From: Dehalococcoidia bacterium
Lineage (GTDB): Bacteria; Chloroflexota; Dehalococcoidia; Lucifugimonadales; Lucifugimonadaceae
NCBI GenBank assembly: GCA_029936155.1
Contig: JAPYUK010000004.1
Coordinates: 5,541-51,084 of the forward strand
Direction of reading: 5' to 3'
DNA length: 45,544 nucleotides
The notes beneath the pieces were generated by a model. It was given only the letters and a program-made list of their open reading frames with translations, made no database searches and was not told where the DNA came from. A program made the position numbers and the translations under genes. Shown piece by piece: positions 4,141-9,034 of this stretch (within the stretch, counting starts at the first letter, position 1; each line of letters begins with the position of its first letter).

Positions 4141-5310
4141 CTACTCGATAACCTTGAGCAGATCGGTACAGGCCTCGAGCGATTCGAGAGTATTTTTACC
4201 TTGACACATCAGAACCATGTTGCCCGCCACGACATAGTCAAAATATTTTGGAAAGCCACACCTGCCGACGGAATGACCACCACCCGAATCACAACGTCGA
4301 CGATCTGACAGTCCTTCTGTCCAGCGCTGATCGTCGGCGTATAAGGAAGCATTCGCACCTGTTGCTTCGTCGGCGAACTCAACTCCGACTTCTCGGGCAG
4401 CTTCGTGGCTGAAGTAGAATCTAGCTTCGTACTCAAGGCGACCGTAAGGATCGGCGCCGTAGAAGCCGTAGTGAACTGAACTTGCTCCGTTTAGATCACG
4501 CACGTCATATGACTTTGAGGTTTTGAACCCGGCCAATTCGAGATCCGCAATTTTGTACGAACGCTCGGTGTCTGCGATTTTTGAGAGCATCTCATCGACC
4601 GGAAGCTTCAGCTGGCAAACATCGATCGCTACGGCGAAATCCTGCACAACTTCTCTTGACAGCTCGCCGCCGTATCCCTCGGCAAACAACTCACCAAGCT
4701 CCCCAACCATGCACCCTTCCTGCCGAGACGAATAGCCCATAGAGCCGTGGCCAGAATCAGAACCTTCACCTTGGCCCAAGCTTGTTAGCGCGCCCAACTC
4801 TGCCGGAGTCAGACACTCAACGAAGCCCTGCAAGGCAATCTGCGTACCTTCGCTCTGAGGTTCGCCTGTACCAATCATCAATTCGGACAGTGTGCCGGTT
4901 GGGATGTCATCGAGAAGCGACGCCACACAAGCCAGAGACGATCCACTGATCTCTCCAAGGGTCTCCTGAATCTGACCAGCAATAAACCCCGCCACAAGCT
5001 CGTTCGAGAAGCAGTTGGAAAGAGCTAACTGCTCCGATTCGACCGGCTCCTCGCCGGCGGCAAGTTCTTTCAGGCGATCTTCGCCAAGTCCGCCAGCCAG
5101 GCAATCGTAGTCAGCGGTCGGAATTTGTGACACGAACGCATCGAAATCACTCTCGGGATTCGCTGTGATTATCGCTATCTGCGGAAGAGGAGTTGGGGCG
5201 ACTGTTGAGGTAGGCGGCACAGCAGTAGGCTCAGTGGTGGCACTCCCACAGGATACGAGCACGATCGCCAATAGCATCCCGACCAGCATCACAAACCCAC
5301 GATTGTTCAT
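4141..5310 (-). CDS. Lipoprotein with three two-cysteine modules plus a C-terminal AGNMV/MCQ domain
   Basis: Secreted lipoprotein of 389 residues. The signal peptide ends at IVLVSC, giving lipidated Cys21, followed by a Thr/Pro linker. Three modules like those of the downstream lipoprotein follow: Cys70/100 (opening CLAGGLGEDRL), Cys128/166 and Cys200/232 (opening CMVGELGELF). A separate C-terminal domain, about residues 245-389, contains AGFKTSKSYD (260-269), YGFYG, a FYFSHEAAREVGVEFA helix and YVVAGNMVLMCQ (359-370). This domain recurs in the small lipoprotein at 44419-44934. The ATG at 5310 is preceded by GAGG seven bases upstream, a normal ribosome binding site. It lies 121 bases upstream of the first lipoprotein gene and is probably co-transcribed with it. 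A role in binding or envelope structure is possible, but nothing in the sequence fixes the function. Confidence 0.8.
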   Translation of the reverse strand: MNNRGFVMLVGMLLAIVLVSCGSATTEPTAVPPTSTVAPTPLPQIAIITANPESDFDAFVSQIPTADYDCLAGGLGEDRLKELAAGEEPVESEQLALSNCFSNELVAGFIAGQIQETLGEISGSSLACVASLLDDIPTGTLSELMIGTGEPQSEGTQIALQGFVECLTPAELGALTSLGQGEGSDSGHGSMGYSSRQEGCMVGELGELFAEGYGGELSREVVQDFAVAIDVCQLKLPVDEMLSKIADTERSYKIADLELAGFKTSKSYDVRDLNGASSVHYGFYGADPYGRLEYEARFYFSHEAAREVGVEFADEATGANASLYADDQRWTEGLSDRRRCDSGGGHSVGRCGFPKYFDYVVAGNMVLMCQGKNTLESLEACTDLLKVIE

Positions 5311-5351
5311 TTCGTCCTCATACAGCCCATCAAAACTTCAGGTGCATAAGA

Positions 5352-5822
5352 CTACTTGCGATCGTTCACGAAAACCGCGATCTCGCGCGGATTCATCCGT
5401 CCCAGCTGAGTTGTTGCGTATAGCGAGGCTGCGATCTCACCGCCCGGCCTAAGAATAAACTCGGTAGGTTGCATGATCGTCTCGCCCTTGCGTTCACCTG
5501 GCACTGCTCCGAGTACTTCGATACCGCCAGCTGTCACGCCGAAACCAACCGGGAACGTAATCGGTCCACCTGAAGTGATCTTTCGCGCACCAGCCTCAGG
5601 ATCTGTGCTGGCAGCAACAACTTTGATGCCCAAGCGGGTCAGCAACTTGTACTGCTCCTGCGTCGCGTCCAACTGACGCACGCAGTAACCTCACCAACCG
5701 CCTCGGTAGAAAAACGCGTACACCCACGAGTCGGTCCAATCGTCGGGTAACGAGATCGACTCGCCGCGTGGAAGCGAGATTTTCAGATCTGGAAACTTGT
5801 CACCTGGCATTAGCATCGGCAT
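5352..5822 (-). CDS. Peroxiredoxin-like (AhpC/TSA, redoxin fold) probable selenoprotein with in-frame UGA
   Basis: Read through the TGA at 5691-5693, this frame encodes 156 residues of a thioredoxin-fold peroxiredoxin-like protein. The N-terminal part, MPGDKFPDLKI to AFFYRGGW, is followed by the UGA as residue 44 and then GYCVRQLDATQEQY. Cysteine homologues of this family carry FYRGxWCxxC at this point, so UGA replaces the first, catalytic cysteine (U-G-Y-C). The C-terminal part has LGIKVVAASTD and the sheet-forming FPVGFGV segment expected of the fold. A hairpin fitting a bacterial SECIS begins five bases after the UGA. AGGAG sits nine bases before the ATG at 5822, in frame with the downstream part, which supports one continuous gene. 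The predicted role is thiol/selenol-dependent reduction of peroxides or disulfides. Without recoding, the gene would give a 43-residue stub. It follows a broken FMN-oxidase-like gene. No sel genes are in the window. Confidence 0.75.
5658..5693 (-). promoter_or_regulatory. UGA codon and SECIS-like hairpin
   Basis: Reading on the minus strand, the UGA (5693-5691) is followed by GGTTA, then the arm CTGCGTGCGTC, the loop AGTTG and the arm GACGCGACGCAG. The arms pair over eleven base pairs with a single bulged G. The apical loop starts 16 bases after the UGA and has G as its second base. Published bacterial SECIS models ask for a loop roughly 16-37 bases after UGA with a G in its first two positions, so this fits at the short limit. 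Seen directly: UGA position, pairing, loop. Inferred: SelB recognition. Confidence 0.7.
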
Positions 5823-5869
5823 GAAGCGGCTCTCCTGTGTATCGACTTCTGGTAGCTGTTGGCGCGGTT

Positions 5870-6510
5870 CTACTGCCCGTTGGATTCGTTCCGCTTGGAA
5901 ATCGATGCACGGATCGACTCGGGCACGCCAATCTTAGGCTCGTGCAATGAGTCTAGCTCGGGCGTGCCGTGAACAGCTCTACACGGGATTACACCACCCC
6001 TGCAGTCAAGATCGAGATCGTCCGGCTCTTCGACCCTTACGCATGCGCGAGCCTTGGCGGATATTTCTTCGATCTCCATGCGAATCACCGATGTCTGGAC
6101 GAACTCCGAGTTCTGGGCTTCGTCTCACCTGCCAGGCGTGATGTGCCCGACCAGCAACTCCATGCCACGAAGTTTTCGACCACATCGGTAATCTCTGTAT
6201 TGGTGCAGAAAATGACGGCGGAGCGATAGTTGATCGAGTGGTGAAAGTGCGATTGTGCGGCAACGATTCCGTCGAGGTGAGTTACTTCAACCGTCAAAGG
6301 CCGGCCGCTGCCCACAGCCCGAGCCATTCCGGCTCCGGTTGAGCCCTGAAGAATTAGCGAATCGGCATCACGAACGTAAAGTGTCGGAATTACAACGATG
6401 CCATGTTCAGTTTCAAATCCAACGTGGCAGAGGTGCCCGGCATCGAGAATAACGTTGACCGAAATGCCGGTGAACAATCGATTTTTGGTTCGCTGCCATT
6501 TTCTTTGCAA
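5870..6510 (-). pseudogene. Broken pyridoxamine 5'-phosphate oxidase-like FMN-binding protein
   Basis: The N-terminal part (from about 6510) reads as a split-barrel FMN-binding protein of the pyridoxamine oxidase-like type: VILDAGHLCHVGF, IVVIPTLYVRDAD, LTVEVTHLDGIV and SHFHHSINYRSAVIF. After TEITDVVE the homologous sequence moves to another frame (LRGMELLVGHITPGR). This is explained by one missing base in the A run at 6173-6176. A TGA at 6125-6127 then occupies the position where family members usually have Trp (PGR-W-DE). Downstream, the frame continues normally through EEISAKAR, a VEEPDDLDLD segment and the GGVIPCRAV strand to a TAG at 5870. With both lesions repaired the product would be about 214 residues, the family length. 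So it is either a young pseudogene or a stretch with assembly errors. The start is uncertain; TTG at 6510 is the first good candidate, just after leuS. Confidence 0.7.
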
Positions 6511-6526
6511 GACGAAGTGGAACTGC

Positions 6527-9034
6527 TCAATTCGCTGGCCTGACGACGATATTCACGAGTCGCCCCGGTACGTAAATCTCTTTCACAATAGCCATGCCTT
6601 CGAGGTGGCGAATGACGTTCTCGGCGGATTTAGCAGCAGCGATCGCGCTAGCCTCGTCGATACCCGCTGGAACTTCGATCTGGTCACGAAGTTTGCCTTG
6701 GACCTGAATCGCCAGCGTAATTGTGTCGCTCGTGGTTAATGACTCATCGAACTCCGGGTTAAGCGCGAGATGAATTGAGCCGGAGTGTCCGGTTCGCTCC
6801 CACAGTTCCTCAGCAATATGTGGAGCAAGTGGGGCAGTGTGCAGCAGCAGCCGATCAACACCAGCACGCCACGAAGCGGCAGAAACATCGCCAGAATCGT
6901 GACTTCGCATCAGCTTTGTGGTGAACTCCATCAACGCCGCGATAGACGTGTTGAATTTGAACAGTTCCATATCGGCCAGAACCCGCTGGGTGGTCAGGTG
7001 AGACGCCCGTTCAAGATCGCGCTCAGCCTCGTCACTGCCGGACGAACCAAGTACCGATTCATCGCGCTGAGCAACATCCCAAATACGGCCCAGCCAGCGC
7101 GTGATTCCATTAATTCCAGAATCCGACCAGTCGCCACCCTGATCCCATGGCCCCAAAAACATTAGGTAGCAACGAAGCGTGTCGGCACCGTGTTTTTCAA
7201 CCACCGGGTCGGGTGGAAGCGGGTTCGACCTCTTCGAGATCTTCTTACCGTCCTTGATCAACATTCCCTGATTAGTGAGCTTGGTGTAAGGCTCGTCAAA
7301 ATCGACATATCCGAGATCGCGCAGCGCCATGTTGAAGAATCGAGAGTAGAGAAGGTGCATCACTGCATGCTCAGAACCGCCCTGGTAGGCAGTCACTGGC
7401 GCCCACGCACGGATCTGATCGTCATCGAAAGGGTCTTCACTCGGATTTGGACTCGCAAATCGAAGGTGGTACCAAGATGAACACACGAACGTGTCGAGAG
7501 TGTCGGTCTCACGCTTCGCAGCCTTGCCGCAGTCGGGGCAAGTTGTGTTCAGGAAGTTCGGGTCCTTGGTAAGTGGTGACTTTCCATCGGCCTCGAACTT
7601 CAAGCTATCAGGTAGCAATACAGGAAGGTCTTTTTCAGGGACCGCCACCGTTCCACAGTCGTCGCAGTAGACGATCGGAATCGGCGTGCCCCAGAACCGT
7701 TGGCGCGAGATCAGCCAGTCACGCAGATGATACGTGATTGTGCGTTCGCCCCACTTGTTCGCCTCGATCTTGTCGGCGATTGCATCGAAACCCTCACGAC
7801 TCGGCAGGCCATCGAACTCGCCCGAATTGACCTGCGTTCCAGCCGGAATCCATGCTTCATCCAGCTCGCCACCACCCCAGTCGGGCGGCGATATGACAAC
7901 GCGAATTTCCAGATCGTACTTCTTCGCAAATATGAAATCACGCTGATCGTGCGCCGGAACACCCATCACCGCACCTGTTCCGTAAGTCGCCAGCACGTAG
8001 TCGCCAATCAGCACCGGAACTCGTTCACCGTTCAGCGGGTTGATACAGTAGGCGCCCGTTGCAATACCGGTCTTCTCACGTTCGGTCGATGTACGGTCGA
8101 TCTCGGTCTGGAGTGCAGCATTCGCCACGTATGCCTCGACCGCCTCTTTCTGGCTGGGTTGTGTCAGTTTTCTGACCAGCGGATGCTCCGGAGCCAACAC
8201 CACGAACGTCACGCCATAGACGGTGTCTATTCGAGTCGTAAACGTATCGATTTGCTCGCCCGATGCGAACTCGCTTACATCAAAACCGATCGTCGTTCCC
8301 GTCGAACGTCCGATCCAGTTCGTCTGCATCGTCTTGATCTTCTCGGGCCAATCGATCTGGTCAAAATTGAGAAGTTCGTCTGCATATTTAGTGATTGCGA
8401 AGTACCACTGCGGAAGTGCGCGCTTGACCACGATCGTGCCGCATCGCTCGCAAACGCCGTCTTTCACCTGCTCGTTGGCGAGCGTGGTCTGATCCTTAGG
8501 ACACCAGTTCACTTGGCCGTCCTTGCGATACGCCAGGCCGTTCTTCAAGAACTGCAGGAAAAAATACTGGTTCCACTTATAGTACTCGGGATCCGACGTT
8601 ACAAGCTCTCGGGTCCAATCGTACGACCCACCCATCTCACGGAACTGACGCCGCGAGTTTTCGATGTTCAGGTAAGTCCACTCACGGGGATCCTCGCCAT
8701 GTTCTATCGCTGCGTTTTCGGCGGGTAGACCGAACGAGTCGAACCCCTGCGGGTGCATGACGTTGTAGCCCTGCATTCGCTTGAAACGTGCATAGGCGTC
8801 CGACCCGCTGTACTGGAACCAGTGCCCCATGTGGATGTCGCCAGACGGGTACGGGAACATCACCAGCGAGAAGAAGTTTTCCTTGCCTTCGACGTGATCC
8901 GCGGCATTATAAATGCCGTCTTTCTCCCACTTCGCCTGCCACTTCTTTTCGATATTGGCAGGCGTGTAGCGTTTGGAATCATTACCCGCCTCTCCCCTAT
9001 CTGAACCTGATCGACTTTTACCCGTTGTAGTCAA
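6527..9034 (-). CDS. leuS: Leucyl-tRNA synthetase
   Basis: Class I aminoacyl-tRNA synthetase that charges tRNA-Leu in the cytoplasm, 835 residues, normal length. The HIGH signature appears as HMGH at residues 68-71 after SLVMFPYPSGD, and the KMSKS loop as KISKR at 598-602. Four cysteines in a WCPKD...CERCG segment and again in CDDCG and CPDCG resemble zinc-binding knuckles. The CP1 editing domain lies between them (DTVYGVTFVVLAPEHPL, GTGAVMGVPAHDQRD with the editing Asp). A C-terminal anticodon-binding helical domain (HTAPLAPHIAEELW) and a LeuS-specific tail complete it. The start is a TTG at 9034 preceded by GGGAA; no closer ATG keeps the conserved N-terminus. The gene ends 16 bases before the decayed FMN-oxidase gene. 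Confidence 0.97.
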   Translation of the reverse strand: MTTTGKSRSGSDRGEAGNDSKRYTPANIEKKWQAKWEKDGIYNAADHVEGKENFFSLVMFPYPSGDIHMGHWFQYSGSDAYARFKRMQGYNVMHPQGFDSFGLPAENAAIEHGEDPREWTYLNIENSRRQFREMGGSYDWTRELVTSDPEYYKWNQYFFLQFLKNGLAYRKDGQVNWCPKDQTTLANEQVKDGVCERCGTIVVKRALPQWYFAITKYADELLNFDQIDWPEKIKTMQTNWIGRSTGTTIGFDVSEFASGEQIDTFTTRIDTVYGVTFVVLAPEHPLVRKLTQPSQKEAVEAYVANAALQTEIDRTSTEREKTGIATGAYCINPLNGERVPVLIGDYVLATYGTGAVMGVPAHDQRDFIFAKKYDLEIRVVISPPDWGGGELDEAWIPAGTQVNSGEFDGLPSREGFDAIADKIEANKWGERTITYHLRDWLISRQRFWGTPIPIVYCDDCGTVAVPEKDLPVLLPDSLKFEADGKSPLTKDPNFLNTTCPDCGKAAKRETDTLDTFVCSSWYHLRFASPNPSEDPFDDDQIRAWAPVTAYQGGSEHAVMHLLYSRFFNMALRDLGYVDFDEPYTKLTNQGMLIKDGKKISKRSNPLPPDPVVEKHGADTLRCYLMFLGPWDQGGDWSDSGINGITRWLGRIWDVAQRDESVLGSSGSDEAERDLERASHLTTQRVLADMELFKFNTSIAALMEFTTKLMRSHDSGDVSAASWRAGVDRLLLHTAPLAPHIAEELWERTGHSGSIHLALNPEFDESLTTSDTITLAIQVQGKLRDQIEVPAGIDEASAIAAAKSAENVIRHLEGMAIVKEIYVPGRLVNIVVRPAN

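Follow-up and report, generated by a model that had tools for sequence, protein, structure and literature searches.

The analysed stretch of 45,544 nucleotides, referred to here as the window, carries on its minus strand a short redoxin-like gene that lies between leuS and a gene for a DUF6810 protein, with a decayed-looking gene separating it from leuS (Table 1). The window's genome (G000) is that of a Lucifugimonas-type SAR202 bacterium and is available as a draft of 2.07 Mb (84 contigs, 89% complete). SAR202 bacteria occur throughout the ocean. Candidatus Lucifugimonas marina JH1073 (CP046147.1) is placed by NCBI in the SAR202 cluster of Dehalococcoidia.

Table 1. Features of the window that are discussed in the text.
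Feature	Position	Strand	Basis
Predicted selenoprotein gene, 156 aa with Sec44, AhpC/TSA-like	5352..5822	-	translation; PF00578 and PF08534 matches
In-frame TGA, putative Sec codon (residue 44)	5691..5693	-	TGA in 82, Cys in 5 distinct loci
AGGAG, likely ribosome-binding site, 9 nt 5' of ATG	5832..5836	-	sequence
SECIS hairpin (predicted), 11 bp with one bulge	5658..5685 (loop 5674-5670)	-	fold, codon bias, pairing in relatives
Downstream neighbour, DUF6810 protein	4141..5310	-	PF20650 E 8.6e-42
Upstream gene leuS (leucyl-tRNA synthetase)	6527..9034	-	PF13603 E 8.3e-66
Decayed-looking Pyridoxamine-5'-phosphate-oxidase-like gene	5823-6510	-	PF12900; 141-aa ORF 6085-6510

The gene opens with an ATG at 5822-5820, meets a TGA at 5693-5691 (residue 44) and ends with a TAG at 5354-5352. 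It comprises 157 codons including the stop, and its single in-frame TGA, at codon 44, is embedded in the motif FYRGGW-U-GYC-x-RQL. The original prediction, which left the strand unstated, had described one redoxin-like frame broken only by this TGA and an AGGAG ahead of the ATG; the latter is found at 5836-5832, and the former is borne out by the translation and by a Pfam match across the TGA. Using the read-through protein, the AhpC-TSA match that spans the TGA (PF00578) reached E 3.8e-15 and 56.4 bits against a gathering cut-off of 26, and the Redoxin match (PF08534) reached 31.1 bits against a cut-off of 26.6; both models also matched all 22 of the 22 aligned family sequences at E 0.001. 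In a comparison of the window with its relative L057, differences numbered 7, 6 and 19 at codon positions 1, 2 and 3 in the 38 codons before the TGA and 21, 18 and 57 in the 111 codons after it, a concentration at third positions that argues for coding constraint on both sides of the TGA.

The leuS/DUF6810 flanking arrangement is common to the window and its nearest relatives: leuS lies upstream of the selenoprotein gene also in L057-L061, and the DUF6810 gene adjoins it in L057, L058 and L059 (L182 being the same genome region as L059), with a partial match in L060. The decayed-looking gene that sits between leuS and the selenoprotein gene in the window has a homologue in L060 that forms one 228-aa ORF, whereas in the window the similarity continues in a different frame, where a TGA (6125) stands in place of a Trp codon, offering a contrast to the conserved Sec TGA. 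Among the stops of 26 large ORFs in the window TAG is the commonest (18/26), followed by TGA (5) and TAA (3). A mechanical scan listed 86 other in-frame TGAs in the window, and no second convincing case was present among the 40 that were viewed.

After removal of duplicates, TGA was found at the Sec codon in 82 distinct loci (window included) and Cys in five (L076, L087, L093, L098 and L126), a count that was drawn from L023-L052 and L057-L136, leaves out duplicates and matches that lack the motif region (L042 and L073 among them), and does not represent a population ratio, as the loci kept are those most like a Sec protein and the motif allowed only Sec or Cys at that position. A Cys in homologues at the position of residue 44, which the original prediction had proposed to look for, is thus present in these five loci. 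The 82 TGA loci consist of the window, its Chloroflexota relatives and four Alphaproteobacteria MAGs, and the TGA is kept in the complete genome record CP046147.1 (L059) of the cultured Ca. Lucifugimonas marina JH1073.

A match at E 0.001 was obtained in 57 of 100 related genomes. In this search of close relatives, 37 of the 40 rows at E 1e-20 or better, counted by hand, had a TGA inside; two of the remaining three cover only the part after the TGA, and the third, G027:C43:48450, is full length without a stop. The locus L211 (G027:C43:47907-48911) holds two adjacent copies of the family; a TGA is present in the first, and the second has no internal stop. A contig scan with an alignment as query confirmed 259 relatives, of which the best 80 were kept, while the same scan with a single-protein query confirmed none. 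The best 80 of the 259 comprise Chloroflexota, whose titles, where more specific, mostly name Dehalococcoidia or SAR202, and four Alphaproteobacteria MAGs (L075, L080, L083, L131). In an even sample of the phylum, matches at E 1e-20 were present in 21 of 301 genomes; those in G146, G197 and G375 are without an internal stop, and the G146 and G375 matches have Cys. No match to the selenoprotein gene was obtained in g5, g6, g7 and g9, four genera of the same family whose genomes are small (0.7-1.5 Mb).

In a tree of 83 rows, rooted at the midpoint, six of the seven Cys rows (two of them identical) form a cluster with support 94/90 that is nested in a fork where 21 Sec rows stand beside 6 Cys rows, and the seventh is on a very long branch. 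The Sec/Cys label requires 2 changes on this tree compared to 6.8 in shuffles. The grouping suggests a Sec-to-Cys change within the family, subject to the midpoint rooting and the long branch of the seventh Cys row. The four alphaproteobacterial Sec rows, which come from Alphaproteobacteria/Hyphomicrobiales MAGs, also group together, so that a transfer of the Sec form between phyla, or a binning error, is possible.

The bases that follow the UGA fold as originally described: eleven pairs with one bulge start five bases past it, and the loop AGUUG begins 16 nt after it. This hairpin has a predicted energy of -18.2 kcal/mol for 38 nt, and none of 200 dinucleotide shuffles was as stable (z -3.3 to -3.7). 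The G expected early in the loop also agrees with the published bacterial model, which, in the accessible part of PMC13188914, specifies a loop of 3-9 nt, an upper stem of 4-16 bp, a G in the first two loop bases, a distance of 16-37 nt from the UGA and an MFE of -7.5 or lower; the window hairpin lies within these limits for loop, stem, G, spacing and energy.

Codon usage in the relatives points to the same element. The sixth codon after the TGA is CAG in all 82 Sec genes, compared to 312 of 464 Gln codons elsewhere in them (p 4e-13), and the seventh is a TTA or TTG Leu codon in 75 of 82, compared to 182 of 1152 leucines elsewhere (p 5e-47); both p values are nominal, the sequences being related and “elsewhere” referring to the captured gene parts. 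As these bases form the hairpin loop, the CAG and TTR codons appear to be conserved at the RNA level. The five inner stem pairs are formed in 347 of 375 cells in the 75 TTR genes and in 366 of 410 in all 82 Sec genes, but in just 9 of 25 cells in the five Cys genes. When 52 distinct TTR sequences are considered, pairing is seen in 237 of 260 cells, compared to a mean of 205.7 and a maximum of 217 in 2000 shuffles, which take no account of kinship among the sequences. Most of this excess is due to pairs 14-28 (67 of 75 vs 32.9 expected; types GC, TA, CG and TG) and 17-25 (68 vs 60.8). Pair 13-29 (50 vs 28.4) is also above expectation, pairs 15-27 (64 vs 62.2) and 12-30 (36 vs 38.6) are not, and pairs 18-24 and 16-26 show hardly any variation. 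At the protein level, RQL is found in all 82 Sec forms and RHL, with His for Gln, in four of the five Cys forms. The family would also be a clear example of a recoding signal in RNA that limits which residues can stand near the active site of an enzyme.

Seven Sec relatives have CTA or CTG instead of TTR, and the same stem is not formed in them. General hairpin measures were less discriminating: a crude hairpin scan separated only weakly, a score of at least 7 being reached at 72% of the 82 Sec codons, in 48% of the 574 controls taken upstream and at 2 of the 5 Cys codons. The MFE threshold was passed by 79 of 82 Sec stretches and also by 51 of the 82 upstream ones. The Rfam model SECIS_1 was uninformative, matching neither the window's genome nor any of 14 control genomes. 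A Moco-II match from Rfam at 5300-5900 was rejected, its 14.7 bits being below the gathering score of 35.

Regarding the Sec machinery, for which the original prediction had proposed a search of selA to selD and had named the absence of selB, selC and selD as contrary evidence, the outcome was divided: selA (509 bits against a curated cut-off of 267.9) and selB (322 bits against 242.25) are present in the window's genome without stops, while the search of this draft, which is 89% complete, found neither selC nor selD. For selC, 70 of 289 first-look candidates were scored in G000, using a covariance model built on seven tRNA-Sec genes, each from a different family of the order. With this model a tRNA-Sec of at least 73 bits was found in 45 of 60 genomes, including 16 of the 18 other genomes of the same genus, and none of this strength in G000, G001 or G003. 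The genome G001 (same genus, 96% complete) contains a full-length TGA gene and showed no tRNA-Sec above 33 bits among 70 scored of 230 first-look candidates.

The same-genus tRNA-Sec genes (L189, L194-L197, L202-L204, L206) have the anticodon UCA and follow a thioredoxin-like gene. In all nine of the same-genus loci examined, selC is preceded by a pair of genes that by sequence encode an oxidoreductase and a thioredoxin. In G000 the match to the first of these two genes covers 40 of 297 query residues and then runs into base 1 of contig C22, so that selC of the window's genome would lie past the contig end, which explains its absence fairly directly. The anticodon loop is CTTCAAC in the same-genus tRNA-Sec genes and CTTCAAA in the seven model sequences from other families; a typed tRNA-Sec pattern picked up the selC genes of seven further families in this order and none in the window's genus. 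Among the rejected candidates, an RF01852 match at G000:C81 proved to be tRNA-Ser(GCT), and L179 and L180 were likewise discarded as tRNA-Sec. A strong tRNA-Sec was present in 19 of 23 genomes with the selenoprotein gene (E 1e-20 or better) and in 26 of 37 without it, as counted by hand; the two go together only loosely.

A selD above cut-off was found in 35 of 40 genomes, including 17 of the 18 others of the same genus, and was absent in G000, G003 and G022-G024. The best hit in G000 (92.9 bits) is an unassigned protein of SelD/HypE/ThiL type. In relatives, among them G013 of the same genus, its counterpart is found alongside a true selD. L053 was rejected as selD because it is below the selD cut-off and scores higher on the HypE and ThiL models, and L054 because it is above the thiL cut-off. 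All 37 above-cut-off selD hits in the 40 genomes hold one in-frame TGA. Read-through of the selD of L181 (G013:C1:286000-290000, minus strand) gives TCAG-U-AGK, which corresponds to the UxxK form of SelD listed in the accessible part of PMC13188914; a Sec-site motif search in ten SelD loci and L181 matched none of them. mazG, by sequence the neighbour of selD in G013, gave no match in G000 in a search run without a positive control, and this is the sole local hint regarding the absence of selD.

The conserved TGA, the Cys homologues, the SECIS constraint and the Sec machinery, observed computationally as selA and selB in this genome and as selC and selD in the majority of same-genus genomes, support the proposal that the UGA is read as selenocysteine, and the window gene is very probably a genuine selenoprotein of the peroxiredoxin-like UxxC type. 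A defect confined to one genome, such as a nonsense mutation, a pseudogene or a sequencing error at a Cys codon, might be suspected in a draft contig from an 84-contig assembly, the more so as the neighbour at about 5823-6510 looks decayed and has an in-frame TGA at a Trp position. However, the same TGA is found in 81 other distinct loci, including the complete record CP046147.1, and the differences after it remain biased to third positions; its conservation across loci refutes such a defect, which retains a negligible probability.

The UGA could also be recoded in another way, as Cys or Trp by a change of the code or by plain read-through. This would fit the failure to find selC and selD in the window's assembly and the status of TGA as a minor stop in the large ORFs, but TGA does end five of them and a wholesale code change is unneeded. 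In addition, selA and selB are present here, tRNA-Sec (anticodon UCA) and selD occur in most of the genus, a constrained hairpin is what SelB-dependent decoding predicts, and the other residue at this codon, in a motif that allowed only Sec or Cys, is Cys. We consider such recoding highly unlikely. It is equally improbable that the gene is a relic, giving a 43-residue fragment in a species that is losing Sec decoding with selC and selD gone. Neither of these two nor mazG was found in G000, and G003 of the same genus is also without selC and selD hits, yet coding constraint extends to both sides of the TGA, the SECIS is intact, selA and selB are free of stops, and in G000 a contig end truncates the gene found ahead of selC in all nine same-genus loci examined.

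For the gene as a selenoprotein, we infer that SelB with Sec-tRNA(Sec) would bind the hairpin just past the UGA and decode it as selenocysteine. The predicted product would be a 156-residue thioredoxin-fold protein with a Sec44-x-x-Cys47 pair, which most likely reduces a substrate that may be either a peroxide or a disulfide. The pair would close to a Sec-Cys selenenylsulfide, to be reset by thioredoxin or a small thiol.

Further candidate Sec redoxins were observed in the window's genome and in related ones. The window's genome has a second Prx-like gene with the motif VVFYRAYW-U-TFC (L209, G000:C3:82400-84800, TGA at locus position 1149), and similar genes are present in L215 (G013) and L213 (G003). 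L210 (G046:C1:2005400-2009000, minus strand) contains three adjacent Prx-like genes in the same orientation, and all three have a TGA that lies in a FYR-x-[FY]-[WF]-U-xx-C motif. On balance we lean slightly towards a broader reading, in which SAR202 bacteria would be widely, though not universally, selenium-dependent, with expanded Sec redoxins (the present family and the W-U-xx-C family with its three-copy set) and a UGA-containing selD, and in which the SECIS loop would fix RQL in Sec forms and conversion to Cys release it (RHL in 4/5). This reading is made less probable by the four small-genome genera without a match to the gene. Those of their genomes that were searched for tRNA-Sec gave none of at least 73 bits, and G022-G024 no selD above cut-off; a loss of selenium use accompanying genome reduction in these genera is possible.

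No account combining SAR202 and “selenoprotein” was found in the open-licence full text literature. The main text of the SAR202 cultivation paper, which in its accessible part reports that light inhibits and kills SAR202 (PMC10444878), contains no word beginning with “selen” and no “peroxiredoxin”. “Chloroflexi” is absent from the main text of PMC2398784, and both “Chloroflexi” and “SAR202” are absent from PMC9312934 and PMC13188914. The original description of a lineage with few noted selenoproteins does not fit the wider Chloroflexota, for which the accessible parts of the sources give a 2006 count of three selenoproteins in Chloroflexi (PMC1794560), Sec formate dehydrogenases of Dehalogenimonas together with selCDAB (PMC13390414), and Sec formate dehydrogenases in Anaerolineales and deep-sea Dehalococcoidetes (PMC4959059, PMC5736913). 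As described there, these enzymes share the phylum and Sec decoding with the window protein, but belong to anaerobic metabolism and are not redoxins. SelA and SelB have also been reported in many symbiont bins of a sponge-symbiont study (PMC5649159, accessible part). As far as searched, the UxxC subfamily in SAR202, including the cultured Ca. Lucifugimonas, and its codon evidence are new. If SAR202 bacteria depend on Sec redox enzymes, selenium supply may affect them, and gene callers that take UGA for a stop will cut such genes.

The profile of the family alignment matches by sequence the solved structures of a Prx (6q5v, E 4e-12), an AhpC (5uka, 2e-11) and ResA (3c71, 8e-10), which points to remote similarity only. 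In the alignment to 6q5v, Sec44 falls on the Thr of TPVC and Cys47 on its Cys, and the classical peroxiredoxin motif PxxxTxxC is absent from the window protein, with RGGW-U-GYC in its place. In view of this alignment, the proposed location of the UGA at the catalytic cysteine calls for caution. The Sec form of the classical motif is given as PxxxTxxU in the accessible part of PMC13188914. The Sec peroxiredoxin PrxU is, like the window protein, of AhpC/TSA type, but its Sec is the last residue of TxxU, where Cys47 of the window protein aligns, Sec44 being on the Thr; the PrxU model of NCBIfam gave 22.5-23.6 bits against a cut-off of 270. Three other NCBIfam entries, SelL-related (NF040769), TUGYCR (NF053656) and WAxxUGC (NF041054), describe thioredoxin-fold redox proteins like that of the window, the latter two with U in the motif name. 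The window protein scored 12.5 bits on SelL_rel against a cut-off of 120, and of 22 members one was matched by TUGYCR (best E 0.011) and two by WAxxUGC (best E 0.001). The score of the window protein stays below the cut-off for every NCBIfam model.

The UxxC kind of redoxin has precedent. According to the accessible parts of the sources, publications on Prx-like selenoproteins with UxxC go back to 2005 or earlier. For the Sargasso Sea, 22 sequences were assigned to an already-known family (PMC1088965); the GOS survey counted 225 “Prx-like 1” selenoproteins (PMC2398784), the Prx-like family was noted in Deltaproteobacteria and a Clostridia species (PMC1794560), and a Prx-like thiol:disulfide oxidoreductase with UxxC is included in the reviews PMC9312934 and PMC13188914. 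Compared by description rather than by alignment of sequences, the window protein, which combines PF00578 with UxxC, would belong to the Prx-like UxxC proteins so defined, sharing with them, as far as they are described there, a PF00578-type domain, a Sec in UxxC and a bacterial origin.
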